Of a stretch of DNA of 64,000 bases, positions 5,405 through 64,000 are shown piece by piece. Position 1 is the first letter of the stretch. Every line of letters begins with the position of its first letter. The DNA comes from Ehretia macrophylla (lineage: Eukaryota; Streptophyta; Magnoliopsida; Boraginales; Ehretiaceae), in NCBI GenBank assembly GCA_037974665.1, contig CM075764.1, positions 80,499,825-80,563,824 of the forward strand, given 5' to 3'. Both the position numbers and the translations under genes were made by a program. The notes under the pieces were generated by a model. That model did no database searches. It was not told the DNA's origin and saw only the letters and a list, made by a program, of their open reading frames with translations.

Positions 5405-6326
5405 TTTTTTTTTTTTTTTTGTTAATTCAGTGGGAGATTTATTGATATCCAAAGGAAGTGGTACAAGTACAAGATTGTTGACAAACAACATCAAAACAAG
5501 ATCAAGGAAAGCAGAAGAGAAATAGTCCAAACAAGGACTAAAAGAACAAAAAGACAGGAAAACAAAGGAAAATCTCCTTAGTGGGTTCTCCGATCAGGGG
5601 GTCTTCCGTTAAACATGCCTCGAACTGCCCTAGTATAATCAAAGGAAGGTGTCGCCTTGGATGTAGATGCAGTGTTGGAAGAGATGGCAACATCACGATT
5701 GGTAGAGATGGCTTTGCCAAAAGTATGAGTAGAAACCTTATCCTTAGAACCTTTAGATGGGTACGGAGTAACCGAAATGTGAGAAGTATGTTGTTGTACA
5801 TGTGCCTGCGTAGGGATGTTCACCTTTTGGACATTGGTTTTTTTTTGGAAAACACCTGTTCCAGCAGTTTTATTCTCTACAGTCTTGGACTTAGAAAAAT
5901 TTTCCTGGGAACGTTCATCAATTTGATCACCATGATCTCCATGAGCTTCATCTGAGTTAAGTATATTAAATCTGTTATTGCTAACCAATGCTCTTTTTTA
6001 CGTGAAGCACCACGTCTCCTCCTATGCTTTTTATCTGCTTCATTCCATTCTGAATTGGTGCCTGAAGGTTTATCCTCAACCCGATTGTCTGGAGAATTAG
6101 GACAATTGGAAGTGTCATGACTTGCAACATTACAAAAAGTACATTTCTGTGGTTTCCAATCATATTCGATTAGGATCTCAACCTCTTCCCCATTAGGGAG
6201 TTCGACATCTGTCCTATCTGGGAGATCCTTTAGAATATTCATTTCCACACATACTCTTGCATAACTGAGATGTGACCGTGAGGCAGTTTTCGAATCCATC
6301 TGAAGAGGGAGGCCAATTGTGCTTGA
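5405..6326 (-). mobile_element. 5'-truncated ORF1-only LINE copy
   Basis: Minus-strand insertion in the copia LTR. Its 3' end is the poly(T) at 5405-5420, followed by GTTAATTCAGTGGG, the same tail as the full copy at 6779 and the reverse of the tail of LINE B at about 19003-19028. Coding sequence is the C-terminal half of a LINE ORF1, which ends about 160 bases before the poly(A). No RT sequence lies between ORF1 and the tail. Comparison with the uninterrupted LTR near 20700 places the right border at 6324-6328. I see no clear target duplication. Confidence 0.85.
5578..6326 (-). pseudogene. LINE ORF1 C-terminal half (CCHC knuckle)
   Basis: ORF1 proteins of L1-type plant LINEs bind RNA. Reading from 6326: IGLPLQMDSKT, SYARVCVEMNI, a CX2CX4HX4C knuckle (CTFCNVASHDTSNC, about 6142-6101), then RRRRGASRK. 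A frameshift near 5985 passes into the second open frame (5988-5578), which ends in FDYTRAV and FNGRPPDRRTH. It is close to the 6968-7807 sequence throughout. It cannot be expressed as one product. Confidence 0.8.
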
Positions 6327-6778
6327 AAACACGTTAAAGAGTTAATGTTGTTTATTTTGGACGTTAATAGTTAAGCGGACCTAAAGTACAAATAGTAAAA
6401 GTATTAGGGTCAAAGTGCAATTACTAAGTTGGAAACACATTAAAGTGATTAACGGTGTTATTTTGGCCATTAACGGTTAAGTGGGCCAAAATTGTAATAT
6501 TTGAAAATTTTGGGGCCAAAGTGTAAATACTGAAAAGTATTGGGTCTAAGTGAAAAATAGATTGAGGGGTCAATCTGTAATTAATTATTCTAAAAGGGTT
6601 TAGAATTAATTATTCTTTGTCTTCACTTAAAGACAAACAACAAGTTGCACTAAAAGACAACTTGCACAAAAGGACAAAAGACAAGTTGCATGATATTTGT
6701 CCAAATTGCCCTCTTATGGCCAGCCACTTGAAGGAGATTTTTAACACTTGGCTTCTTCATTTATTTAGATCATGACAC
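6327..6778 (+). repeat. copia LTR segment (left copy, part 2)
   Basis: Continues the LTR after the LINE insertion and matches about 20705-21178 of the 3' LTR. It contains imperfect repeats built around GTAAATACTGAAAAGTATTGGG-like units and, at 6620-6690, several ACAAAAGACAA-type units. It ends TTTAGATCATGACAC at 6764-6778, the left target-site duplication of the next LINE. Confidence 0.85.
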
Positions 6779-6967
6779 TTTTTTTTTTTTTGTTAATTCA
6801 GTGGGATTTTATTGAAAAAAAATGGAAAAATACATCAAAGTACAAACTGTATGACAACTGGTGTCATAAACAAGAACAATAAAGAAACGAGAAAATCATA
6901 TCGGTCGCAGACCGTAAGTTACAAAAGAAAAACATGAAAACGGAAAAATGATACAACAACATCATCA

Positions 6968-7807
6968 TTAAGTTTTTCGATCAGGTGGTCTTCCATTGAA
7001 GATGCCTTGGACTGCCCGAGTATAGTCAAAAGATGATTTAACTCTTGAAGTTGAGGCAATAGAATTTTCCTTGCCAGAAGAACTGAAATTTGAAATGACT
7101 TTGCCTGCAGTAGTTGTGGAATTTTTGTCTTTAGAACCTTGTGGTGGGAACGGGGTGACCGACATTTTTTGAGCTTGGTTTCCAGAATTTTGAAGCTTAG
7201 GGATACTCACATTAGTCCCATTTGAAGGCTTGGCTGAATAACTGACCTGTTTCATTTGGGACTTCTGTTGTCCATGGTAAACTCCCGTACCTTGATGATT
7301 GCCAAGATTCCCAGATTTGGAATTTTTTTTCTGAGAACGATCAAGAGAAGGTTCATCATTATCCTCATCAATAACATTGAGAACATTAAATCTGTTCACA
7401 TTACCCTTATTCTCTTTGCGGGAAGCACCACGTCTCCTTCTCGGTTTCTTACCAACATCAGTCCAATCCAAACTTGAACTAGTGACATTATTATTCACTT
7501 TCTCCTCAATAGAATTAGGACATGAGGATGTGTCATGTCCAACAACGTTGCAATGAGAACATTTGAGTGGAGTCCAATCATATTCAATCTCAATTTCAGC
7601 CAAACCTCCTTTAGGGAGCTCAACAAAGGTTCTGTCTGGAAGATCCTTCTGAATATTCATTTCAACACAAACTCTTGCATACACGAGATGAGAACGAGAG
7701 GCCGTTTTTGAATCCATCTGAAGAGGGATACCAATTGTGCTTGAAACATAACTGAGACCATCTTTGGTAAGTAAATCAAGTGGGACATTTAGTAGTTTTA
7801 ACCACAT
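6968..7807 (-). pseudogene. LINE ORF1, C-terminal part (CCHC knuckle, conserved C-terminus)
   Basis: 279 codons open from the ATG at 7807, but this ATG is internal: homologous ORF1 copies read through (VP-W-LK-NVPLDL). Seen in order: IGIPLQMDSKT, YARVCVEMNIQKDLPDRT, knuckle CSHCNVVGHDTSSC (residues ~95-108), a basic patch RRRRGASRKENK, a low-complexity Ser/Asn/Gln region, and a C-terminus with FDYTRAV and FNGRPPDR. The DUF4283 part lies upstream in another frame (7830-9857). Restoring one frame needs a small indel near 7820-7835. Confidence 0.8.
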
Positions 7808-7829
7808 TGGGACCCTATCACAATTAATA

Positions 7830-9857
7830 TTAGTTAATCAGTTGAAGGCCCATTTCCCAACGTCTAAGGAGAAGGGGATGGTGGTGGACATGCCATAGCT
7901 TTTGCATCACCCGGTCACAGAAAACTTGTGATTCAAATCGAAACACATAAAGCCCAAAGTCATTGGATTGAATGTCAACATGACCAAATTTATTCCATTG
8001 AGTATCAACCATTCTTCTAATTAAGAAAAATGGGGGAGGCTTACCTATAAATTGACCAATAAGGCAACAATTCCAGTGTTGAGCTCCATCCTCGAAAACA
8101 CTTTCTGGAGGCTTAGCAATTGTTCTCCCATCCCTAATTTCGAATTTGTCAAAGTAGTCCAGTTTGAGCGAATTGTTTAATTCACCCAGAAAGTGCTCCT
8201 TCCAATTGTTGGTGATAAGATTTGCGCCATTGGTACCATTTTGACTCCAGTCAGAGCGGAGGTTGGTTCCATGTCCTTCCTGTGTAGAACCATGAGCTTC
8301 AGCAGGTTTAGAAAAAGTTTGCTGCAGGGAAGGAAATTCATTTTGTAAATTAGCAAAAAGGCCATTGTTGAAGTGAGCTGGAAGATTTTGGCTGAAAGGA
8401 TCACCAACAAGATGATCCACTTCAGATGAATTTTGAATCTGATTCGCATTGAAAGCACCATCATCCATCTTAGGACCCACGGAATTATTAAAATTGGATG
8501 TCAACCCATTGTGCACGATGGAAGAGACTTGGATTTTGGGCAGCTCATTTGGCGAAAAAGGCGCCGAATTGGTGGAATGCTCGATGGATTGAGCATTCAC
8601 ATTCACTTGAGTCTGCATGAAATCATCTTCACGTGGAGGTGGGGCAGGCTGCTCAACAATTGGTAGTTTGGAATTCACGTTGGATTGAGCATTCACATTG
8701 CTAAGATCCGAAGCATTCTTCACACAATCAAATAAGAGACTCCCGACATGGTGGCCCACGTGGTTGCCCTGATCCGTGTGAAGACGTGGGGTATGAACCT
8801 GTTTGTCCATATGCTGACCAGCGTGACTTGCGATAATTAATTTGCTTGAAGGCTCAATAGTAGAGACATGGTTGGTAACTCGAGTGGCTTGGACAAACCC
8901 ATGTGCTTGCGGGCCCGTCTCATTAACATTGATAATATTTGAATTAGCATTGTCGGCCAAAGCAAGAGTCTCATGGCCAAAGATTCCTTCGTCCACATGC
9001 ATTTTTGAATTTTCTTCACGTGGGCCATCAACCGTGACATGAGTAGTAGGATCAACTGAAATAGCTGGATCATTTTGACCGTGGATACCATGTGAATCCA
9101 AAATTGGCTGAAGTGGATGGTCTTTAAGTGGGCCAGCCGCGTGAGTTGTGATAGACAAATTCTCATGCAGCACATGAGTTGCACCGAAAGTAGCAACGGC
9201 AACATTATTTGGCGTGCTTGAAGGGACCATGGGAATGACAGAATTGGAGGCATCATTGGGTTCCGCGTGGGGACCAACACCATGAATGCTTTTTCGTCCA
9301 AGTTGGTCTGGACCATACTGCATCTCACGCGCCATAACACTATTGCTCGAATTAACATTAATGCCATCATCGGACTTAGGAGAATGATTTCCAGATTGTT
9401 TAGATTCCGATGAGTGTTCAACATTCTTCTCAGACGAATTTGGAGTATTGCAAATTGGAGGGATTCCCAGTCGAGGATCATTCGGATCAAGCCCCATTGC
9501 TCTAATGGAGTCACGAACACCTTCTAATCTTGAACCTTTGAGAAATCGATCAAGGCTTGGAGCTGAACGAATTTCAGAATAGTCATCGATTTCATACTCA
9601 TCTTCACTCATATCAATTCCTTCATCGTATTCAAAAAACGCGGCCTGCTTGGCTTGAATAACCTTAAAAGCTTGCTCAAGCTGTTGGCTTGAATTGAACG
9701 ATTCTTCACCTTTTGCAGAAGAGGCGGATGAGGGCGAGCAATCTTCTTCGTCAACCTTGTCCATACTGCTAGTAGACTTGGACTTAGCTTTTAATCGTTC
9801 ACTTGAACGACGAGAGGAGGAAGAGGTGTTCTTACCTCTTCCCCCCATAGGGGACAA
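7830..9857 (-). pseudogene. LINE ORF1, N-terminal part (disordered region plus DUF4283)
   Basis: 675 codons open from ATG 9857, the first ATG after the leader. Residues 1-60 are Ser/Lys/Arg-rich (SSSSRRSSERLK), then an acidic stretch (DEGIDMSEDEYEIDDYSEI, ~78-97), then a long polar low-complexity region. Residues ~540-670 match DUF4283, an RRM-like fold in plant LINE ORF1 proteins: WKEHFLGELNNSLKL, HWNCCLIGQFIGKPPPFFLI, YVFRFESQ, LWHVHHHPLLLRRWE. The frame ends LIN-stop where homologues continue, so a frameshift separates it from the knuckle half. Not a host gene: it lies wholly between LINE ends. Confidence 0.85.
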
Positions 9858-10043
9858 AAATAAGTTTTTTTTTTCTGGTCAAATTTAACGATTTTGGTGG
9901 TGTCTATGGTTGTTTTGGGGTGGTTGAAGGGTGGTCAATGGGTGGACAAGGACTGGTATGTAGAGAGAAGGCAGAGAGAAATTTTCTAGAGAGAGAAGTT
10001 TCTTCAGCTAATCATATATATTGTTGTCGCATAATGCTTTGTT

Positions 10044-10098
10044 TTTAGATCATGACGCTTGTCATTTGATGAGCAAGCTTGTGTATCTATAAATAGAG
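10044..10098 (+). repeat. copia LTR segment (left copy, part 3) with TATA box
   Basis: Resumes the LTR after the LINE, starting with the right copy of the target duplication, and matches about 21165-21218. It includes CTATAAATAG (10087-10096), a good TATA box in plus orientation. It stops abruptly at 10098, where a new LTR of the same family starts with TGTTGG. Confidence 0.75.
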
Positions 10099-14819: not shown

Positions 14820-15627
14820 TACAACGTTTGATCAACTGAAAATGGTCTGTATGTTTTCAGATTTGAAAACCTGAAGTTATTCCCAAATTTCTTGGTCAAT
14901 TATGGCATGTCAATAATAGACATTTGCTCCTGCGAAAATGGGATCCTAACGCCCAACGAGTCGAATTCAAGTGTGACAAAGTTCCTATATGGATCAAGTT
15001 GAGAAATGTTCCTTTCAGCTTGTGGACAATGGAAGGTCTTAGCCGTGTAGCCAGTGTTTTGGGTAGACCATTACAAATGGATCCTCTGATTGCTACAAGA
15101 ACTCAACTTGGGTACGCTCATGTTTGCGTTGAGATATTATTGGCCATCGATCATCTGATTGCCCTTTATCCCCTAAGGGGAATCCAGTGTCTGTGCAATA
15201 GCCTGATCCACCTTTGACGAAGATTGAGACCTCTCAGCAACCTACTCAACAACAAGAGGACAATGTGGAAAATGTTCAACATCCTGTACGACAACCCAGC
15301 CCACAAACTGGTGCAATTGATGGCCACAATGACCAATGGACTGAAGTTACTAGGAAAAAGAATTCAGGTAACTCCACATCCTTTCCTAAGTCTACCCAAT
15401 CTGGCACTTCTTCCCCAAAGCTCAACTTCAGCAAAAGTACTCCAACTGCAAATAAATATGATGCCCTTGACAATTTGAATGATAATCCAGATGATGGTCT
15501 TTCTGATCCAGAACCTGGAGAAATTCTTCCTCTAAAAGATGACACTGAAGTGGCTAAGCAATCTGATAAGCCTCAAACTGAGCAACCTAGCTCTCCCAAC
15601 TTGTCGGCTCAACCCAGTTTACCATGA
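14820..15627 (+). pseudogene. LINE B ORF1, C-terminal part
   Basis: Fragmented. YVFRFEN (from ~14850), then after a shift LWHVNN and LLLRKWD, then the 14924-15217 frame with VPIWIKLRNVPFSLW, GRPLQMDP and YAHVCVEI. The CCHC knuckle is mostly lost by a deletion near 15140-15160. The 15214-15627 frame is the polar C-terminus (VTRKKNSGNS, NKYDALDNL, EPGEILP). Its stop overlaps the ORF2 start ATG in ATGA-type arrangement (15624-15627), as in LINE C. Confidence 0.8.
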
Positions 15628-18600
15628 TTTTTTTAGTCTGGAATATTAGGGGGCTTAATAACCCCCAAAAACAAAAGGAAGTTTTTAAACTTGTAAATAA
15701 GTTTTCAATTGATGTTTTCAGTATTGTTGAAACAAAAGTCAAGAAGGGTAATGAATGTAATATTATTTCTCGTAAGTTACTAGCTTTGGGTTCATGCATA
15801 ACTACAACTCTAGCCCTTCTAGTTGTATATGGATTTTCTGGAACAAAAGCCTATTTGATATTACTCAAATTGACTCTACTGACCAAGCTATTTTATGTCT
15901 GATTACATCTAGAGTGAACAATACACAAGTCTTTGCCTCTTTTGTTTATGGAGACAATCTTGCAATCAACAAAAAATTCCTTTGGTCCAAGATTGTTGCT
16001 TGGAGTTCAACTTGTGCTACTCGGCCATGGTGCATCTTAGGAGATTTCAATGAAACACTTTTCCAGGATGAAAGATCATCTCAAAATCTCCCTAGTTCTG
16101 CTCTTGACTTCAAGAATTGTATATGTCAAGCTAACCTCATTGATCATCCCAGCAATGGCCCTCTTTATACTTGGAGCAACAAAAGCATTTCCTCACACTT
16201 CAAGGCCAGCAAACTTGATCGTGTACTTGTGAATGCGGAATAGATGAAGCAATTCAACTATTCTAAGCTCCATATTAAAATTCCAGGACTCTCTGATCAT
16301 TGTCCTCTTATTCTTTACACTGATCTTCCAAGAACCTCAAGGCCTAAAGCTTTTAAATTTTTCAATGCTTGGACATCTCATGACCTTTTTCTACAAGTTG
16401 TCAAACGAAACTGGAATTTCTTTATTGCAGGTTCCCAAATGTACAGACTTGTTCAGAAACAGAAAGCTCTTAAGCAAGCTCTTAAAGGTTTCAATGCTTC
16501 TTTCTTCTCCAACATCCCAGCTAGGATTCAAAGCCTCCATGAGGAAATCAGCTCAATCCAATATTCCATTCTTTGTGGTAATATTGATGAACAAACTTTC
16601 AGTCGGGAAAAATATCTTCTCAGTGAGATGGATTCTCTTTCTAAGGCTCAGGACAAGATTCTTCAGCAAAAATCAAGAATTCAATGGCTTCGAGATGGTG
16701 ACTCTAACACTGCTTACTTTCACAAGATTATTCGTGGAAGACAAGCACGCAACCTTATCACAAAATTGAAGTGTTCTGATGGAAGGGAGACAATGAATGA
16801 AATTGAGGTGCGTGATGAAACTGTTAATTTTTATATTCACTTTCTTAGTCCTTCTCAGAGTCAACCTAATTGGAGGACATTCAGCCTTTTGTTTCTAAAA
16901 CTATCTCAATGGAAGTTGCTAGCATGTTATCAGCTCCTGTCACCGCTGATGAGATTAAACAGGTTATGTTCTCACTCAACAGCTACAAGAGCCTTGTCCT
17001 GATGGGTTCACTTCCCATTTCTACAAGGTTGCCTGGCACATTGTGGGTAATAATGTTATTGAGGCTATTCTTTCTTTCTTTCGCTCTTCTTCTATTTTGA
17101 AGGAACTCAACTCAACTATTATTGCTCTGGTTCCTAAAGTTGAATCCCCTTCAATGGTCAAAGATTTTAGACCTATCTCTTGTTGTAATACAATCTACAA
17201 GTGTATCTCTAATATTATTGCCAATCGCATGAAGAGCAGCTTGCCTCACATTATTTCTCATAATCAATCTGCTTTTGTTGAGAACATATATCTTTGAGAA
17301 TATTCTTATTGCCCAGGATCTTGTTAGAAGCTATTGCAGGAAAAATCTTACTCCTAGATGCACAATGAAGGCTGACCTCATGAAAGCATTTGATACTGTG
17401 AACTGGGATTTCCTTGCTCTTTCTCTTAAGGCTTTTGGATTCCCGGATATCTTTGTGAAATGGATCCTTGAATGCATCTCAACAACTAGATTCTCTATCT
17501 CTATTAATGGAAGTCTTGAAGGTTACTTCCCTGGGACTAAAGGGATTTGAGGAAGGTGAAATTGCATGTTCGATATTTAGGGATCCCTCTTATTTCTGGA
17601 AGACTCCGTAAATCTGATTGCCAGGCTCTCATTGACAAAATTTCAAAGCGGATTGATAATTGGGCAAATAGATGGGTTTCTTTTGCAGGTAGACTTCAAT
17701 TGATCAAATCGATCTTATCAAGCTTGTACTCTCACTGGATCAGTGCACTGTTTATTCCCAAAGGTGTCATCTCAGTCATTGAAAGTAAGTTCAAAGCATT
17801 CTTATGGAGGGACAGTGGACCTAAAATTGCTTGGGAACATATTTGTAAGCCGATTGATGAAGGTGGACTTGGTATTAGAAGCATAGAGGAAATCAATCAA
17901 ACTGCTCTTCTTAAGCTCTCTTGGCGGTGTTACTCAATGCGTGACTCTCTTTACGGCTCTTGGGTTTGGTCTAATTATATCAGTGACAAATGCATTTGGA
18001 CTATCAAAATTCCCCAGGACACTAGCTGGACGTGGAGGAAAATCCTTCAAGTCAGGAACAAAGCAAAGAGATTCATTACCCATCACATTGGGGATGGTAG
18101 TCAGACTTATTTCTGGCATGATAATTGGCACCCCTCAGGTAACTTGTTTAATGAGTTCGGTATTGATGTTTCATATCCTCCAATCAATGCTAGAGTTGGT
18201 GAGATTATTCACAATAACAATTGGATATGGCCTCATCATCCCCCTTCTCTTGCTCGTCTTTTTCCCAATGAGTTGGTGCCAAATAACTCAGGTGACACTT
18301 TTCATTGGGCTCATTGCAATATGGGATTTTCTCATTCAAGAAAACTTGGAATAGAATCAGGGAAATTAGAGTGAAAATTCATTGGTATAAACTTGTTTGG
18401 TTCCAAAATTGCATTCCGAAGCACAGTTTCATCTCCTGGCTTGCTTTTCAGAATAAACTAGCCACTCTTCAAAGACTCATCTCTTGGGGCATTCAAAACA
18501 ATTCTAATTGCATTCTTTGCTACATGGGATGTGAAACAAATGAACATCTTTTCTTTGAATGCTTTTTCACTAAAAGAATTTGGCAATGAGGTCTACTTGC

Positions 18601-18901
18601 TCTCTCTCTTGATCAATCACTTTATACTCTTTCGAGCTTCATGGACATCTCACATACTATCCAACACAAGAACTATGATGCAAAGACACAAATTTTAAGA
18701 ATTTTTCTTTATGCAGCAATTTACCACATTTGGATGGAAAGAAATCGACGATTGTTCAATGAGGAAGCCTACACTAAGGAACACATTTTCAACAACATTC
18801 GTAGTGATGTCACATCAAAGATCATCATGGGTCGAAAATTTGCTCCCTCCAATCTCAACAGACGAACTTTGTTCGATTGGGGGATTTACGATTTTGCCTG
18901 A
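15624..18901 (+). pseudogene. LINE B ORF2 (endonuclease, RT, zf-RVT), catalytic RT palm deleted
   Basis: The start ATG at 15624 gives WNIRGLNNPQK and IVETKVKKG of the AP-like endonuclease; a frameshift near 15800 leads on to GDFNETL, SKLDRVLVN, a stop at 16241, then SDHCPLIL. The RT part reads WLRDGDSNTAYFHK, DFRPISCCNTIYKCIS and KADLMKAFDTVNWDF. At about 17545 the sequence jumps from GTKG to EEG-type residues, so the FADD catalytic block is deleted (about 350 bases relative to LINE C). The zf-RVT end (GCETNEHLFFEC) reaches 18901. Several frameshifts and stops; non-functional. Confidence 0.88.
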
Positions 18902-19028
18902 TTCAATGTTGGCTTTTTTCAATTTTTTGTTTTCATTTTGTTCATGAACTTATTTGTACTTTGATTGTACCTTGATGTACTTTTATTTTCATTTTAATAT
19001 ACTACCACTGAATTAACAAAAAAAAAAA

Positions 19029-19607: not shown

Positions 19608-21805
19608 TGTTGGAGATATGTCCTAATGTTATATAGTTAGATGACCTATTTTGGGATATTTTGGCATTAACTTGTACCTAATGGCATTTACATCTTTATG
19701 TTTGTTTACATATTGACTTGTTTGTGACGTTCATATTCTCCGCCATTCCTATTATATGAATGTGTCCTTAATGTTTTTTGGAGAAGAAATATATTCTAAA
19801 AGAGTTTAGAATACGTTGGCATATATCTTCGATATGATAAACATTCAAAATGATTCATAGCCCTCAGATTATTCGACTGGGACTAGAATAATCAAGTACG
19901 GGCTATCATATGTAAGTTACCTTTGATTAACATTGAGATGTTAATGATAAAGGGTGGTGAGCCTTGTGCCATAACAGCATAGAGATGCGATTGACTTATA
20001 TATGGGTGATTGTTAGTTGAACGAATCACTGACTGTGACCAAAATAACAAACTACATGACTTTGAATTAATAGTTTGTTATTCATTGCGAATTGTTTAAA
20101 TTAATCCTTTGACTTGAGGAATTACGGATGCAGGTTATATAAAGGGTTAAATACTGCATCTGGACAATACCCGTCTTCCATAAGGTGGGTTACGGCCTTT
20201 TGCGTTTTAGTTTTGTGGTATGAACTGACAGGTAATTGTCAAGATAGGATCCGTTAACCTCCGACGTGAGGCAATGTCCTATGCGATCTTATTTCGGTTG
20301 TTGAATGAGAAAGTCCTGGGCCGGGGCACATAACAGATGGAAAGATAGAAAGGGTTCCATAGGTGTCATCTCTCATTCCATTGAATAGATCTATGCATAG
20401 AATCGTTTAATGGACTTAATCGTATCATGCTCCCCACAACGATCAGGACATATTTAATGGAAGGATCGGACTGCACGCTAATTTACGACTATAAATAGAT
20501 TCATAAAAGTTGGACTTCATTACCATATAAATTGTCATGATGCGCGTGTGAACATGAGGGTATTCCAGAGAATGACGGAGACATTCTCGGAATAGATTAA
20601 AATCGTTTAATAGTCCCTCATCGCTATACGGTTATGAATCTAGAAAGTCACACACATAAAGAGCATCAAGAATAAGGCAACTAACGAGCTTGATATTAAG
20701 TTGGAAACACGTTAAAGAGTTAATGTTGTTTATTTTGGACGTTAATAGTTAAGCAAGCCAAAAGTGTAAATACTGAAAGTATTGGGGACAAAGTACAATT
20801 ACTGAGTTGGAAACACATTAAAGTGATTAACTATGTTATTTTGGCCATTAACGGTTAAGTGGGCCAAAATTGTAATTTTTGAAAGTTTTAGGGCCAAAGT
20901 GTAAATACTGAAAAGTATTGGGTCTAAGTACAATTTAGATTGAGGGGTCAATCTATAATTAATTATTCTAAGAGGGTTTAGAATTAATTATTCTTTGTCT
21001 TCACTAAAAGACAAAGAACAAGTCGCACTAAAAGACAAAAGTACAAAAGGACAAAAGACAACTTGCACAAAAGGACAAAAGACAAGTTGCATGAAATTTG
21101 TCCAAATTGCCTTCCTATGGCCAGCCACTTGAAGGAGATTTTTGACACTTGGCTTCTTCATTTATTTAGATCATGACACTTGTCATTTGATGAGCAAGCT
21201 TGTGCATCTATAAATAAAGGTCATGTCTTCATTCTTTTGTTGAGCTTTTTGGTCGAAAATCACTCTCAATTAGAAGGCAAAACTCTCTTTTTCTCCCTTG
21301 GTAGTTTCGGCCATATTAGAGAAAAATAGGAGGAGTTTTTCACTTGCTCTTCTAACTTTATACAAGCTTAGATCTATCACCAAGAAGCTAGCACATATAC
21401 TTGGTTGGTGTTGTTTGCCATTGGATGCTCGTGTGTTTCGATCTATGAACACTTGTGAAGGAAGCTAGTCCACGCTATCTACGAGATGAGAACTATATCT
21501 TCTTCCTTGATGCTCTCGGCCAAAGCACAAAAAAAGATAAGTGTTATTCTTTTTGCTTTATAATTATATACAAGCTTATTTCTACTACTAAGTATCCTGC
21601 ACATTAACTTAGTTTGTAGTAATAACTGTTGGATGCTTGTGTATTTTGATCTAGTGTCGTTGCATGTGTGAAGAAGGCTTGTCCATGCCGTAGCATCTCC
21701 ATAGTGGACTTTACTTTGGAAATGTATGTGATTACAAAAGTTAATCTTGAAAATTTTAAAATGCTCAACGCTTCCGCTTTAACTCTTTTATGTTGTGAAT
21801 CACAC
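19608..21805 (+). repeat. copia 3' LTR (about 2.2 kb, right end approximate)
   Basis: Starts TGTTGGAGATATGTCC right after the polypurine tract. It contains the region duplicated at 4621-10098, the TACTGAAAGTATTGGG repeats (about 20770-20930), ACAAAAGACAA units (21000-21090) and a TATA box at 21208. Downstream, 21310-21490 and 21520-21700 look like an old duplication of ~200 bases (TATACAAGCTTA ... GGATGC...TGTG ... GTCCA-GC). The end near 21805 is guessed from an ACGCTTCCGC-like LTR tail and is not proven. Confidence 0.75.
21208..21216 (+). promoter_or_regulatory. TATA box of copia LTR
   Basis: CTATAAATA in plus orientation, conserved with 10087-10095. It would drive transcription of a full copia element from the LTR. 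In this 3' copy it would drive outward transcription to the right. Confidence 0.6.
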
Positions 21806-44618: not shown

Positions 44619-47426
44619 TGTCACGCCCCGACCCAACCCCATGCTAAAGGTTAAGTCTGGACCCGACAAATGGACAGAGTCTCCTCTGTACCGTGGGCAT
44701 TCTGAAAACCTGTAAACATTCAAATAAGCCACAGAACAACAAGAATTCTAATTCTAATTCAAATCCTTACTTCAAGGTCATCCGAGCCTTAAGCCATACA
44801 AACAATTTAAATACATACAAGCATGCATTCACAATATAAACTTCTTTACAAAGATGCTTATCATTCCATTCTATGGTAGCAATTAAACATACTTATAGGT
44901 TAAAGTCTACCAGTTCAACCCCTGCGACCACACACAAGCATGCAACAAACTAAAAGGAAGAATATTAGTTATTACATGCCATGGATACAAATCATACACT
45001 ACATCTAACTTACAACCAACATTATACACATGAGCTCAAGGCTCCCAAAATAGAACATTTTAAACAACAAATAAGGTCTTTACAACACAACAAGTACTAC
45101 AATCCACCTCAAGCAAGTAGGACACCGCAACTAAGGTAAATGATCAGTCTGGACCTCCTTCTCTCCATCTTCAACCAAATCAAGTTGGGGTTCAACCTCA
45201 GCGTCTCCTGAAACATGTTAGCGAGATATGAGCAACCACAATTGCCCAATGAGGGATTAAGACTACACGGGAATGCAATGCAACAATTATAGCAATTAAG
45301 CAATGAAAGCAAGTAAAGAACAACTGAAATAGTAAATAACCACACTTTTTTTGTTTTGTTAATTCAGTGTTTATTGAATCCAAAAAAAGACAGTACATGG
45401 GTACAGATCAATTACAGGGTGGCCGCGGCCAATTTGAAAAAAGACAAACAGATCACATCAAAAAATGACGTAAAAAATTCAGAGACCAACTAGAAAGGAA
45501 AAAATCAATGCATCCAATCAGGGGGTTCTCTGTCATAGTAGTCCTCAAAGGCATCTGTTTCATGAGCAGGGCCAGAAATGGACTGAAGAATATCCTTGCG
45601 CATTTTTTCGCGCGCTTTAAAATCGATCTTATTCCTGCCACGGGAATTGAAATGGACTGAAGAATAACCACACATATCAAAAGATACGATACACTTAACC
45701 CAAACACTCCAGAATTCACTTATCTTCGATCACGAACCACGAGCCACGAACCATGATCAATGTGCTGGCATAAACCCCAATCACTCCAGTGGGTGTACTC
45801 CGGATGTACCCTGACAACCTACGACCCAACACCCCCTAGCAATCTCCGGACCAGGCGAGTGAGAGACTAGGGCACGGAGATTGAATATCCACTGGCAAGC
45901 CCGCTGCCGCCCAGCTGATATTCAATACATCTGCCCCGGACACTATGGTTGTGCAACCACAATGCAAAGCACTTATCAATTGCAATACAATAACAATAAC
46001 GGAAGCAATAACACATGGGAGGAACAATAAAGTAGGTTGTCCTCAAAATACATAGAATAGAAGCATTAACAACTAAACAATTAAAGGATTACAAAGGGGC
46101 AATAATATAATTCACATAGAACTTTACCAAAAGCTCAAGAATGTCTTAAAAACACATTTAAACACCCAAGGAGCCTATACAAGGTCTTAGAAGCATGTGA
46201 CAATCGAATTCCTACCGTAACTACTTTGTAACTTAAACTGTTTTCCTTCCAAACTCATGCTATTATCTTAGATTAGTAAATGGCCTATTCTATACTCTTA
46301 ATTAACCCATAAGACACCCTTAGGACCCTTGAGGTTGCCCAATTACCCTCGTTTAGCATAAAAGCCCCAATTTTCCCCTTATGACTTTGTACTACACGTA
46401 CATCAACCGGGACCCAAACGAGTGTTAAAAAAGCTTATTTAGAACCTATATAGCCTAGGTATGCCATTTGTGAAGGCCAAAATAACCCAGATTTGCGATA
46501 GCCACAAAATCCATTTTAAAAAGTCTCCTAGTTCATCTTTTTGCTAAGTTACGAGCAATTAAACCTTACGAGGTCTTTACACTACCTTCATTAGCACCTA
46601 AAGCATCTATTTGGATCATTGAATCAAGCTATAAAGTTCATTTTCACAAAACCCTAAAAATCTCGTCACTATTCACCCCTACGAATCAACTACGATTTCA
46701 ACCATCTAAAATACGAAACAATAGCATAAAAGTGATCTCTACAACATGTATGCATCATGTATAGCAAGATTTGAACATATCATAAGCCAATATCAACAAA
46801 TCTAGAAATTCAACATTTTGACATAAACTTTACATGCACAAAAGAATGCTAAATCCCTCACCAATCATGCGTAGGAGCTAAAGGGAGGCTAGAACACTTG
46901 TGGAAGGGCTTGAACCTAGCTTAGGAGGGCTTGGATTGAAGATTTGATGAAAAAAATTTCTTCTCCTTGCTCAAGAAGGTTGTCGGGTTTGCGGCTGCCT
47001 GTTTTCAGCTTCTTTTGTGTGTGTTACTATGAGCTTATAAGGGTTGTGTAAGTATATAAGTTTAAGTGGGTTAAGTTGGGTGTGTGTTTTGACCCTAAAA
47101 TGAGTCTAGTTGACTTAAAAACGAGTCTAAATGTGCCTTAGTATGATAGCTAACTCAAATATAAAATTCAGCTACGTAACACTATTCATTGAACCACTAA
47201 AAACATTTCCTAAACGAAGACTCCTAACACAAATCGCTCAAAAACACATTTTTCTCATTCCTAAAATAATTAATGTGATTTAAGAAAAATACTAATTCGA
47301 AGAAAATAAACAGTTGAAAAATGTGATGAATAGTAATCATGTAAAGCAACAAGTAATGCACAGTGATTATGCGCAAATAGGGGATGCAATAGTAAAAATG
47401 TGCACGGTAGAATCTCGGGCGTCACA
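44619..47426 (-). repeat. 5' LTR of element B, about 2.5 kb plus a LINE insertion
   Basis: Minus-strand ends TGTGACGCCCGAG (47426) and GGGGCGTGACA (44619). It is interrupted at 45346-45662 by a LINE tail. The part 45940-47426 pairs with the 3' LTR segments at 27126-27372 and 34628-35888. The length fits Tekay/Del LTRs. No coding sequence; short open frames inside are chance. Confidence 0.9.
45346..45662 (-). mobile_element. short ORF1-end LINE tail in the element B LTR, 11-bp target duplication
   Basis: The perfect duplication AATAACCACAC stands at 45335-45345 and 45663-45673. Minus-strand content: poly(T) with GTTAATTCAGTG tail at the left, then a reading frame ending at 45505 with DAFEDYYDREPPDWMH-stop. 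The PPD end followed by stop, about 150 bases before the poly(A), resembles the ends of the ORF1-only copies at 5578 and 6968. Only ~317 bases were inserted (strong 5' truncation). Confidence 0.85.
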
Positions 47427-59904: not shown

Positions 59905-61562
59905 ATACCGTGAATGCTCCTACTACCACTGTGCATGTCACGCATGGTTCAAACTTTTTGTCAGAACATTCAGTCGGTTCAAGCCTCAATGTGCATGTGG
60001 ACACTTTGCCAAATTATTCGTATATTCCTGGCCAAGCTGGCCAAAATTCGAATAATCTGGACCCTAATGTCGCCACTCTACCTCATCACACTCATTCCAG
60101 TTCCCTCCATCCCCATCCCTTGCATTCACAATTCACAAACACTTCCTTTTCCCAACCTCTCCCTCTGGACACGAACTTTCCTCCTCTACGTGCACCTGGC
60201 AGAAAAATTAATGCTCCTTTGATTCATGATCAGAATGCTATGGACCCTGGAGCTACCATCTCTCCTTATAGTAGCTCCAATAGTGGTCCGCTATCATACA
60301 AGCATGCTGTTGGTACGAATGTTATCTCAAACTGGAAGAGCGTTTTTGTTGGTAACCTCAAGAATAACCTCAAACTTAGCTTTGAGGAATGTGAAGATTG
60401 TGAGGAACTTGGAATGAAAATTGCTGCCCCGCCTATTGATGTCTATGAAGAAAATGATCATTACTGGAATTGCTGCCTTATCGGCTAGTTCATTGATAGG
60501 CCTCTTCCCTTCTTTCTGATCGAGAAATTCCTGGCCACTCAATGGAAGAAGTTTGGCAACATTGATGTCAAACGAACTGACAATGATCTATTTGTCTTTC
60601 GTTTTGAAAATGAAAATGTCATTGAGCCTATCCTGCAGGAACTATGGCACATCAACCATCGCTCTCTCCTTCTCCGATGATGGTCTCCAGATACTCAGCT
60701 GGTCAATCTAACCTTCGAAAAAGTTCCCATTTGGTTGAAATTTAAAAATGTCCCACTTGACCTTTGGTCGCAACAAGGCTTCAGTTATATTGGCAGTACC
60801 ATTGGGTTTCCTCTGCAAATGGACGCTAAGACTAAGGCTAGAGCTCACCTCGGGTATGCTAGAGTTTGCATCAAAATGGATATCAGCAAAGACCTACCAG
60901 ATCATACCTGGGCTTATAACAGGTACGGCCAACGTGTGAAGATTGATATTGAATACAATTGGAAACCTTCAAGATGTACCCGATGTAATGTTGTTGGTCA
61001 CAACAATAACAACTGTCCTAAGCAACCTGTCAAAGAACATGTGGCTGATGGTCCGAAAAAGCAGCAACGAAAGAATGATGAATGGAAATCTGTCTCCCGA
61101 AAGGGTAATCAGTATGCTCCTAAGAGGTACCAAGCTACGTTACCTGAATCTGAAACTCAAGTCAGAAACGATCTCCCGAAAGAAAATATTATCCCTATGA
61201 ATCCCAAAACTGGTGAGAACCTAACCGCAACCTCAACCATTGACAGTACCTTTGTCCCCCTTCCAATACCTGCGGCCCATACCCAAAAAGGGCTTCTCCC
61301 TACCCCAAGCTCTATCACCCCCTCTTCCCTCCCCTCAACTTCTCCCTTACCTCCTAAACCTTTCCCCCCTCCCAACCCAACCATGAATAAATTCAACCCT
61401 CTCCAAAAGGTAGGTGGCGATAAGGTCATTGAGGCTCCCTTGAATACCTCAACTCCTAGTGATCTCTCATTAGCTGTTAAATCTCTGGTGGATGGTAAGA
61501 CTCCTTTGCCCCCTACAGGAGTCCCTTCGGGCATTCTTGCTACCCCTTCCCGTTTTTTATGA
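59905..61562 (+). pseudogene. LINE E ORF1 (DUF4283 plus CCHC knuckle), two stops
   Basis: One frame throughout, broken by TAG at 60487-60489 (CCLIG-stop-FID, Gln in homologues) and TGA at about 60677 (LLLR-stop-W, Arg in homologues). DUF4283: WKSVFVGNLKNNLKLSFE, HYWNCCLIG, RPLPFFLIEKFLATQWKKFGN, FVFRFENE, LWHINHRSLLLR. Then VPIWLKFKNVPLDLW, GFPLQMDAKT, GYARVCIKMDI and the knuckle CTRCNVVGHNNNNC (about 60976-61017). A Pro/Ser-rich tail ends at 61562. Both stops fit single C-to-T changes. Confidence 0.88.
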
Positions 61563-64000
61563 TTTTTTGCTCCTGGAACATAAGGGGTTTCCATAAACCC
61601 TTCAAACAAAAAGAAGTTTTACATTTTGTAAATAAACACTCTATTGATGTTTTTGGCATTCTTGAAACCAAAGTTAAAAGTTTTAAAGCTAAACTCAGTC
61701 ATTGGTAATCATTTTCAACAATTTGGTTTCATTCATAACCATGATTCCTGTCACTCTGGTCGTATTTGGATTTTTTGGAATTTACGCAGGGCGCATCTCA
61801 TTAAACTTGACTCCATGGATCAAGCCATCCATTGCCAGGTTCACTCCCTTATTGATGATTCGTCTCTCTTAGCTACCTTTGTTTATGGCAGGAATACTGT
61901 TTCCGAAAGAAGGATTCTTTGGTCTAGAATATCTCATTGGAATGCTCATTCACTCCCCTGGTGTGTTTTAGGTGATTTTAACGAGATTCTTGAAGTTGAA
62001 GATAGAACTGAAAATTGCTCCCAGTCTTCTTCCCTTGTTGATTTCAGAAATTGTCTTTCTTCAGCGTCTCTTTATGACCACCCTAGTTCAGGCTCTTTAT
62101 TCACTTGGAGCAACAAAAGCTCGGGGGATAATTTTAAAGCCTCTAAACTTGATAGGGTCCTTGTTAATCAGCTTTGGTTTGACATGTTTGATCACTCTAC
62201 TGTCCATATTGAGAGCCCCGGTCCCTTTGATCATGCCCCCTTGGTCCTTTACACCTCCATTCCTGTTCTCCCCAAACCCAAACCCTTTAAGTTTTTTAAT
62301 GCTTGGACTGGTCATGATAAATTACTTGATACTGTTCGGGAGGTTTGGGACTTCCCTATTATCGGTTCCCCCATGTTTAGACTTGTTCAGAAACAGAAAA
62401 AGCTCAAGTTAGCGCTTAAAAGTTTTAACCGGTTGTATTTCTCTAATCTTGCTGATCAAATTTCCTATGTCAGAGAAAAACTTGCTTTCTTTCAACAGGT
62501 AATGCTTTCAGGTACAGCAACCGCAGATGGTATTATTCAGGGAAATGCACTTGGCCTAGAACTTGAATCCCTCTCAAATTCATTTGATTCAATTCTTCTC
62601 CAAAAATCAAGAATTCAATGGATTAAGGATGGGGATTCAAATACTGCGTTCTTCCACAAAGCTATCAAGAGTCGGTTTGCCAGGAACACCATTTCTAGAC
62701 TTGTGGACGACAATGGAAATGTTCTCACCAGGGATGATGAGGTAAAAAATGAAATTCTTAATTTTTTCACTAACTCTCTTGGCTCATCTGATGTGCACAG
62801 GGAACGTTTCAGCATGGAAGACATCAAGTCCATTGTGCAGAAAACCATCCCCTATGAGTTTGCCACTGATCTTTCATTACCAGTTACTGCTGATGAAATC
62901 AAAGCTACTATGTTCAGTTTAAATGGAAGTAAAAGCCCGGGACCAGATGGCTTCACGTCCCACTTTTATAAAACTGCTTGGACCATTGTCAGAGAAGACG
63001 TCATTTCTGTTGTTCAGTCTTTCTTTCAATCTTCCTCTCTCCTTAAAGAAGTCAACTCTACATTTATTGCTCTGGTTCCTAAAGTTGCAAACCCTTGTAT
63101 GGTTAAGGATTTCAGACCCATTTCATGCTGTAACACCATCTACAAGTGCATCACTAAGATTTTGGCCAATCGTATCAACCGCTGCTTGCCTCTTATCATC
63201 TCCGGGAACCAATCTGCATTTGTTGAAAAGAGACTCATTTCAGAGAATATTCTGATTGCTCAAGATATTGTGAGGGGCTATAACAGGAAGAATCCAACTC
63301 CTAGATGTGCTCTCAAGGTTGACCTTTTAAAGGCTTTTGACTCGCTCTGTTGGGATTTTGTTCTTCTTACTTTGCAGGCCTTTGGTTTTCCCAATGTCTT
63401 CATCAGCTGGATCAGTGCTTGTATTTCTTCTCCTCGGTTCTCTGTCTCAATCAATGGTAGTCTTGAAGGGTATTTTCACGGTACAAATGGTGTCAGACAA
63501 GGGGACCCTATCTCCCCATATCTTTTTGTCATCGCCATGGAGGTTCTTACATGCATGCTTAATATCTTGACCTTGAAAAACAACTTTGGCTTTCACCCTC
63601 GTTGCTCAATGATGAAGCTCAACCATCTCTGCTTTGCTGATGATCTCCTCCTTTTCTGTAAAGCTGAGCCCGCTACAATTCAAGACTTTATCAACACTCT
63701 CAACACCTTTCATCATCTTTCTGGTCTCCAGTTTAATCCGGACAAGAGTGAAGTTTTTTTTTGAAGGAGGTTCATTTGTTCTTAGGCAATCCATTATTGG
63801 TCTTTTGGGATTCAAAGAAGGCAAACTCCCTGTCCGTTATCTAGGGGTCCCCCTTATCTCTGGCATGCTGAGAAAGCAAGATTGTCAAATTTTGCTTGAT
63901 AAAATCTCGAATAGAATTGATCATTGGACCCATAACTGGCTCACTTTTGCTGGAAGGCTTCAACTCATCAAGTTTGTTCTCAACCACTTGCACCTCTTTT
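61560..64000 (+). pseudogene. LINE E ORF2 (endonuclease and RT), two frameshifts, 3' end outside
   Basis: The ATG at 61560 gives CSWNIRGFHKP and ILETKVKS; a shift near 61690 leads into the long frame to 63764 (706 codons by its first Met). Endonuclease: RIWIFWN, WCVLGDFNEIL, KLDRVLVN, GPFDHAPLVLY. RT: WIKDGDSNTAFFHK, SPGPDGFTSHFY, DFRPISCCNTIYKCI, CALKVDLLKAFDSLCWDF, GVRQGDPISPYLFVIAMEVL, catalytic FADDLLLF (about 63633). A run of nine T at ~63754-63762 adds one base and stops the frame (SEVFF-stop); the next frame continues EGGSFVLRQ and LPVRYLGVPLISG to the edge. Confidence 0.9.

Follow-up and report, generated by a model that had tools for sequence, protein, structure and literature searches.

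Retrotransposons of the LINE class that carry ORF1 only are best known from mammals (HAL1, whose elements use the enzymes of L1) and from the telomeres of flies (HeT-A). A plant DNA stretch of 64,000 nucleotides (the window) holds an element with the leader, ORF1, 3' UTR and poly(A) of a LINE, and the question raised by this locus is whether it is one internally deleted LINE or a member of an ORF1-only family, as a preliminary description had proposed. The interpretation as a family is supported by the analysis reported here, and we regard it as highly probable that the element belongs to a diversified, recently active, trans-mobilised ORF1-only LINE lineage ("half-LINE") in a plant. A lineage of this kind, in which ORF2 was apparently lost once, several subfamilies exist, ORF1 is strongly selected and the copies lie in centromere-like zones, is a natural test of what role LINE ORF1 plays when ORF2 is missing, of the means by which a LINE enzyme selects its RNA (the tail or poly(A)), and of how retroelements reach centromeres.

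Results and discussion

Structure of the element in the window

The window copy (family H1) occupies positions 6781-10043 on the minus strand, with its 5' end at 10043. It is enclosed by a target-site duplication of 17 bp with one mismatch (TTTAGATCATGAC[A/G]CTT), which reads TTTAGATCATGACACTT beside the poly(A) (6764-6780, its end overlapping the T-run) and TTTAGATCATGACGCTT beside the 5' end (10044-10060); the duplication and its mismatch had been recognized before, and only the length given then, 15 bases, is corrected. The first ~49 nt (9995-10043, minus strand) are unshared with copies at other sites and occur only in the segmental duplicates cp02 and cp03, and other near-full-length copies align only from element position ~47-70 onward. 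Unshared 5' sequence of this kind measures 5-57 nt, from which variable transcript starts are predicted. A 5' leader (9849-9994, minus strand) is followed by an ORF1 of ~954 codons (6968-9848, minus strand), which is distributed over two frames of 675 and 279 codons and therefore contains one frameshift between ~7807 and ~7830. The frameshift splits the DUF4283 domain (Pfam PF14111; 7664-8030, minus strand), which is matched in both ORF1 halves (E 4.6e-8 and 1.9e-9), in agreement with the ORF1 of about 950 codons described earlier, and an unbroken ORF1 of 962 aa is present in another near-full-length copy, cp28. The reported CCHC zinc knuckle, CSHCNVVGHDTSSC (CX2CX4HX4C; 7520-7561, minus strand), is legible in the translation, but the Pfam search of the window copy did not call the CCHC model. 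The 3' UTR of 176 nt (6792-6967, minus strand) ends in the tail CAATAAAATCCCACTGAATTAAC, shared with other elements, and the poly(A) is read as a T-run at 6779-6791 (minus strand). The leader, short 3' UTR and poly(A) are thus as first noted, as is the lack of endonuclease and reverse transcriptase (EN-RT): an EN-RT protein from the window used as query gave no match within 5.4-10 kb.

The sister LTR (19935-21219, plus strand) contains the empty site of this insertion at 21165-21181, where it had been placed previously. A second ORF1-only copy, which is diverged, 5'-truncated and belongs to family H2 (5408-6338, minus strand), adjoins the window copy inside the same LTR; its empty site lies at ~20701 in the sister LTR, and no clear target duplication was found in its flanks.

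Copy number and marks of insertion

A search of the host genome (20 contigs, 1.58 Gb in total) yielded at least 139 family-1 places (140 rows before second pieces of one place were merged), together with at least 150 rows of relatives for the H2 copy as query, one of which overlaps a family-1 place and was dropped; scoring covered these listed matches, below which 2564 and 2094 further candidates ranked at first look. The 3' end was read at 50 of the 139 family-1 places and in 20 of the 150 relatives (70 of the 289 listed rows). The tail follows directly behind ORF1 in all 70 copies so read, 69 of them have poly(A), and ORF2 lies between ORF1 and the tail in none, so that neither finding named beforehand as telling against a family, a sole copy or an intervening ORF2, was encountered. 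For contrast, 16 DUF4283 loci were chosen for their Pfam score or frame length, and 14 of them show a downstream EN-RT match of at least 90 residues. An autonomous plant L1-type LINE would share the DUF4283 ORF1, but is rejected as the identity of the element on the same count of ORF2. The copies cp23 and cp28 are neighbours, and the 3' end of cp23 was read on its own.

Target duplications of 10-20 bp were clear in 11 of the 27 copies tested and not clear in the other 16 (cp02, cp03 and cp23 were excluded from this test). The poly(A), the variable-length target duplications, and the 5' truncations, which vary across family-1 copies with a common 3' end, are the marks of target-primed reverse transcription, as in LINE-type retrotransposition. 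Identity between copies at different sites reaches 99.6% across ~1 kb. Judged from their 3' flanks and target duplications, the 50 family-1 copies represent 47 distinct insertions, and this refutes the proposal of one internally deleted LINE copied only along with its surroundings: although cp01, cp02 and cp03 have one target duplication in common and look like segmental copies, the varied 5' truncations and the existence of subfamilies that are diverged yet built alike also speak against that proposal, which we consider next to impossible. Segmental duplication as the sole source was rejected likewise, as it explains cp01-cp03 and one further pair and not the rest.

Common origin and selection on ORF1

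In a tree of LINE ORF1s (L002, L006, L015 and L016 omitted, no mammalian ORF1 contained), the 17 ORF1-only rows form one clade with support 100/99; the 3' end was read in 16 of them, the exception being L120 (H2). The 3' UTR can be aligned across four subfamilies (H1-H4). With no fewer than four subfamilies united in a single clade and sharing a single 3' UTR, the most likely course is one loss of ORF2, in the ancestor of the ORF1-only subfamilies. Between the four subfamilies dN/dS is 0.09-0.15, at dS 0.7-1.3 (six H1, four H2, three H3 and three H4 copies, plus L009-L014), which indicates that ORF1 stayed under purifying selection and answers the dN/dS comparison suggested in the preliminary description; inside H1 and inside H2 the ratio is 0.46-0.47. 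In a codon-position test of family 1, with cp02, cp03 and cp23 again excluded, informative changes at positions 1/2/3 numbered 10/12/20 versus 32/35/29 singletons (Fisher p 0.056, marginal). The ratio inside H1 and H2 and this marginal outcome weigh against the half-LINE reading. Neither the codon-position test nor two short hairpin stems in the 3' UTR, with a double change in two of eight pairs, is relied upon.

If ORF1-only copies arose repeatedly from ORF2-bearing LINEs, by an early poly(A) site, splicing or template jumps, the selection seen on ORF1 would be that of the autonomous parent, and selection is indeed as strong between ORF2-bearing LINEs (L009/L010 vs L014: 0.10), with the 3' end read in only 70 of the 289 listed rows. 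Repeated origin nevertheless appears very improbable to us, given the single fully supported clade, the one 3' UTR common to four subfamilies, the absence of ORF2 from the copies read, and the distance to the nearest ORF2-bearing ORF1 sampled, which shows ~42-57% identity over two pieces that were compared.

The nearest ORF1 relatives sampled are L013 and the ORF2-bearing LINE at 59910-64000 of the window (plus strand; ORF1 broken within 59910-61562, ORF2 from 61644 and running off the window), with tree support 96/95. No match to the N-terminus of the half-LINE ORF1 was detected in either, and the tail of L013 differs from that of the half-LINE; this may mean that the half-LINE lineage is a chimera or that its sister has exchanged its ends.

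Shared tail and mobilisation in trans

The last ~60 nt of the half-LINE match the tails of LINEs that lie in the same clusters and bear ORF2, namely L010, L014, L011 and a decayed LINE of the window (14987-19028, plus strand; matching 3' tail at 18965-19028), with 0 of 2000 mononucleotide shuffles for each. At the other end, the start of the half-LINE leader (query cp25) is weakly similar to the corresponding place in the leaders of the ORF2-bearing LINEs L009-L012 and L014 (stretches of 27-35 nt with 80-85% identity, E 0.027 in each case). EN-RT matches enclosed in frames of 1195-1232 aa exist alongside the half-LINE. From the missing ORF2, the target duplications, the shared tail and the coexisting ORF2-bearing LINEs we infer that the half-LINE is mobilised in trans. 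In such a cycle the half-LINE would be transcribed, its ORF1p would bind its own RNA, an autonomous L1-type LINE would provide endonuclease and reverse transcriptase in trans, probably after recognition of the shared tail together with the poly(A), and the resulting particle would follow the destination of the autonomous LINE, the centromere. ORF1 was probably kept for packaging its own RNA in cis, which would make that RNA competitive for foreign ORF2p.

Chromosomal location

Among the listed places, 281 of 288 are no more than 1 Mb away from a single point on their contig, and each of the 20 contigs has such a point. One narrow zone per contig is a centromere-like pattern, and the zones may well be the centromeres themselves. 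They are shared with the EN-RT places (124 rows merged into 121 places). The clustering could instead reflect retention in non-recombining DNA and not targeted insertion, the zones being perhaps pericentromeric or other heterochromatin; the zone centres are medians of the half-LINE places themselves, and 9 of the 121 EN-RT places are over 2.5 Mb away from them, both of which favour this alternative. We judge it unlikely, since the zones already contain copies with ~99% identity to others, each of the 20 contigs has one zone, and the plant LINEs Celine and HaCEN-LINE are reported, in excerpts of their accounts, in CENH3 chromatin (PMC11288735, PMC4628103).

Half-LINEs might also be partners and not parasites, their ORF1p carrying particles, those of the autonomous LINEs included, to centromeres. 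The constraint on ORF1, the unbroken copy cp28, the confinement shared with EN-RT places and the precedent of HeT-A Gag at fly telomeres (an excerpt of PMC5537684) are in favour, but ORF2-bearing LINEs possess an ORF1 of their own, and a partnership seems to us quite improbable. A HeT-A/TART-like division of labour at plant centromeres is suggested only tentatively and is probably not the case: the ORF1-only lineage would package and perhaps target, and autonomous LINEs with the same tail would give the enzymes. Under such a division, persistence through several subfamilies would make the half-LINE a stable, possibly cooperative centromere retroelement and not a short-lived defective copy.

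Comparison with known elements

The half-LINE ORF1 with its DUF4283 groups with the DUF4283 LINEs of this genome (in the tree without mammalian ORF1), and the half-LINE probably lies outside the mammalian HAL1 lineage, which descends from mammalian L1. SINEs encode no protein; the constrained ORF1 and the unbroken 962-aa copy exclude the half-LINE from that class. The likening to HAL1 made at the outset is apt. As expected of a HAL1-like kind of element, the half-LINE carries ORF1 only, is multicopy and has a 3' end in common with a LINE; HAL1 ("half-L1") elements are described in the part of PMC5753468 consulted as non-autonomous L1 derivatives encoding ORF1p only. The half-LINE differs in its plant host, its DUF4283/CCHC-type ORF1 and its centromere-like confinement, and its several subfamilies have one origin, whereas HAL1s arose several times (same part of PMC5753468). 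HeT-A of Drosophila is alike in chromosomal confinement, a likeness in which targeting by the half-LINE ORF1p is putative, but resides at telomeres by end attachment in head-to-tail arrays, while half-LINEs are internal insertions with target duplications. According to excerpts of their accounts, Celine (poplar) and HaCEN-LINE (sunflower) are concentrated in centromeres, and both carry the EN and RT that the half-LINE lacks (PMC11288735, PMC4628103); Celine has DUF4283 in ORF1 and a 189-bp 3' UTR (PMC11288735), and no ORF1-only family was found in those excerpts. Sunflower, tea, ash, Cuscuta and poplar are the plants for which the Celine paper names Celine-like elements. ZmSINE2/3 resemble the half-LINE as non-autonomous elements with a LINE 3' end, that of LINE1-1_ZM, argued in the part of PMC3747384 consulted to be necessary for recognition (one plant L1 lineage), but the half-LINE keeps an ORF1 of ~960 codons. 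No ORF1-only plant LINE or half-LINE was found among the open-access PMC papers listed in searches, some of them represented by titles and abstract starts. The window also contains a short insertion of a third family (45346-45677, minus strand), whose similarity to the half-LINE tail is limited to its final ~50 nt.

Structure of the window copy and its neighbour

The ORF1-only LINE (half-LINE) of the window lies on the minus strand and starts (5' end) at 10043. ORF1 spans 9848 to 6968, is interrupted by a single frameshift near 7807-7830, and is followed by a 3'UTR of 176 nt (6792-6967) and a poly(A) of 13 A. Pfam matches DUF4283, a domain reported from LINEs of diverse plants (PMC11288735), on each side of the frameshift; a CX2CX4HX4C knuckle at 7520-7561 (minus strand) is legible in the translation, with no Pfam call. 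No endonuclease-reverse transcriptase (EN-RT, ORF2) was detected in the stretch by comparison with an EN-RT protein from the same window. Both flanks carry a target duplication of 17 bp with one mismatch (6764-6780 and 10044-10060), and a single, empty target is found at 21165-21181 in the sister LTR. The preliminary description of all these features from the sequence was borne out, except that the duplication, correctly seen with its mismatch, had been given as 15 bases.

A second, 5'-truncated ORF1-only relative (copy 2) is located in the same LTR as the window copy, at 5408-6338 (minus strand). It has 65% and 44% amino acid identity to the window copy in two pieces, and the ORF1 end FDYTRAVRGMFNGRPPDRRTH and the tail are common to both. 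Comparison with its empty site near 20701 in the sister LTR gave no clear target duplication. Two diverged ORF1-only copies adjoining in one LTR argue against a one-off deletion as the origin. Window copies 1, 2 and 3 recur nearly identically at two more places on the contig (80.23-80.27 and 80.37-80.42 Mb, both inverted relative to the window segment at 80.51-80.56 Mb); since the spacing is the same, this looks like the triplication of a segment that measures at least ~40 kb.

Copy number and 3' ends

The preliminary description had held that an internally deleted LINE would be a sole copy, or would have relatives with ORF2 between this ORF1 and the same tail. A search of the host assembly (20 contigs, 1.58 Gb) with the C-terminal part of ORF1 detected family 1, that of the window copy, at a minimum of 139 places (140 rows, 77-100% identity), a lower bound because 139 of 2564 candidates were scored; 10 of the 140 rows have unbroken frames of at least 850 aa. 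The copy 2 protein gave at least 150 rows (the best of 2094 candidates; identity 100% down to 68%), including at least one family-1 copy. Of the 139 family-1 places, 50 had their 3' ends read: the 30 top-ranked ones and 20 taken from across ranks 31-83. Among the 150 copy 2 rows, 20 were read (identity 92-96% in 8, 75-81% in 7 and 70-72% in 5). All 70 copies have a tail like CAATAAAATCCCACTGAATTAAC (at most 6 of 23 changed) at the expected place behind ORF1 and none has ORF2 in between; poly(A) is present in 69, the ORF1-only relative L097 having the tail alone, and the ORF1 end motif is recognisable in 18 of the 20 relatives. An ORF2 fragment at copy cp09 begins 750 nt past that copy's own 3' end. 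In contrast, among 16 DUF4283 loci chosen by Pfam score or frame length (L001-L008 for 1.5 kb downstream only), 14 have an EN-RT match of at least 90 residues downstream of the domain, L003 has one of 21 residues and L006 none.

Copy cp05 (C9:79067755) contains a second tail and poly(A) within its 3'UTR, as from a short truncated insertion there. At L014, near 8712 (minus strand), LTR-like sequence contains an insertion-like fragment of ~16 nt of tail (CTCCCACTGAATTAAC) plus poly(A), probably an extreme 5' truncation of a half-LINE.

Marks of retrotransposition

Target duplications, which the preliminary description had proposed counting, measure 10-20 bp in 11 of the 27 copies tested (cp01, cp09, cp10, cp12, cp14, cp16, cp20, cp24, cp25, cp26 and cp29), with none clear in the other 16. 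That of cp01 is also present at cp02 and cp03, which look like segmental copies. The 5' truncation points differ among family-1 copies, 50 of which represent 47 insertions as judged by 3' flank and duplication; copies at different sites reach 99.6% identity over ~1 kb (pairwise mean 94.2%), and cp28, lacking only ~20 nt of the conserved leader, has an unbroken ORF1 of 962 aa. These sequence marks indicate that half-LINE copies moved as RNA, and recently. In cp01, cp10, cp14, cp16, cp20, cp24 and cp25, 5-57 nt of copy-specific sequence lie between the target duplication and the shared sequence, which may reflect either a variable upstream transcription start with source flank or added nucleotides.

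Probable common origin and selection on ORF1

In a maximum likelihood tree of the DUF4283-CCHC region, the 17 rows of the four ORF1-only subfamilies H1-H4 (window copy in H1, copy 2 in H2; 3' ends read for 16) lie on one side of a branch with support 100/99, and the 13 others, i.e. 11 EN-RT loci, the ORF2-bearing LINE at window 59.9-64 kb and L003, on the other. The 3'UTR from ORF1 stop to tail is alignable over all four subfamilies, as expected from a single ORF2 loss, and H1-H4 would have one origin and be long-lived. Two short hairpins are predicted in this 3'UTR (window 6792-6967 and homologues; 15 rows, four subfamilies), with weak covariation.

The dN/dS test suggested earlier gave low values between subfamilies (H1-H2 0.15, H1-H3 0.13, H1-H4 0.12, H2-H3 0.13, H2-H4 0.11, H3-H4 0.09; dS 0.7-1.3), similar to L009/L010 versus L014 among the DUF4283 loci (0.10), which argues that ORF1 was selected along the lineages producing ORF1-only copies. 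Values of 0.46-0.47 inside H1 and H2 are those expected of dead copies; H3 and H4 gave 0.09 and 0.17 (three pairs each). A first estimate between copies 1 and 2 was 0.26 (242 codons, C-terminal part included), and a codon-position test inside H1 pointed marginally in the same direction (p 0.056).

Chromosomal location

Among the matches listed, 281 of 288 half-LINE places (139 of family 1 and 149 of the 150 copy 2 rows) lie within 1 Mb of one point per contig, their own median, on the 20 contigs, and all lie within 2.5 Mb; rank in these lists follows resemblance to the copies in the window itself, and more distant ones elsewhere could thus escape. The 1-Mb zones total 2.5% of the genome. EN-RT places fall within 1 Mb of the half-LINE medians in 110 of 121 cases and beyond 2.5 Mb in nine. 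Because centromeres look like one compact zone per chromosome, the half-LINE zones look centromere-like by position; the CENH3 chromatin of poplar and sunflower has been reported to contain LINEs (PMC11288735, PMC12046899, PMC4628103).

Candidate helper and proposed mechanism

The last 60 nt of the half-LINE match the tails of the ORF2-bearing loci L010, L014 and L011 and of the window 15-19 kb LINE (local scores 33, 34, 27 and 33; each 0/2000 mononucleotide shuffles). A weak match to the L009-L012/L014 group (E 0.027) covers the initial ~27-35 nt of the leader, and ORF1 residues 2-67 (14-67 in L014) match this group too. The tree joins the half-LINE's DUF4283 region to L013 and the LINE at window 59.9-64 kb (96/95), but neither the leader start nor residues 2-67 were found in L013, whose tail does not match the last 60 nt (score 13; 67/2000 shuffles); the tails of L013 and the related window 37-40 kb LINE are unlike that of the half-LINE. 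Two readings would fit: the ends were exchanged in this L013-type sister, or the half-LINE is chimeric. Under both, the best candidate helper is the tail-sharing group. This group is among the ~50% rows of the EN-RT genome search, rows (assigned by EN-RT match, not tail) that include stop-free frames of 1195 and 1218 aa. The half-LINE tail may be recognised by ORF2p; in maize and sorghum, one plant L1 lineage has been argued to recognise tails (PMC3747384).

Based on the ORF2-less copies, the many insertions with LINE hallmarks, the single clade, the ORF1 constraint and the shared tail and location, we propose that ORF2 was lost a single time, that the half-LINE would be transcribed, that ORF1p may bind its RNA in cis, that this RNA would use foreign ORF2p, and that the element may be targeted to the centromere. 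It would work in the same way as HAL1 (PMC5753468), although with an ORF1 of the DUF4283 type of plants. HeT-A, which lacks RT, has a Gag that targets telomeres and likely obtains its enzymes from TART or TAHRE (PMC5537684); the half-LINE is also confined to one chromosomal compartment. No plant ORF1-only LINE was found among the matches listed from the open-access literature.

A third family, inserted at window 45346-45677 (minus strand) with a possible short duplication GTGTGGTTATT, has only the last ~50 nt in common with the half-LINE (TTCAATAAACACTGAATTAAC and an A-rich end). It has at least 40 genome matches at 94-100% (40 of 176 candidates scored), which by eye lie inside or at most ~1.2 Mb from the half-LINE zones.
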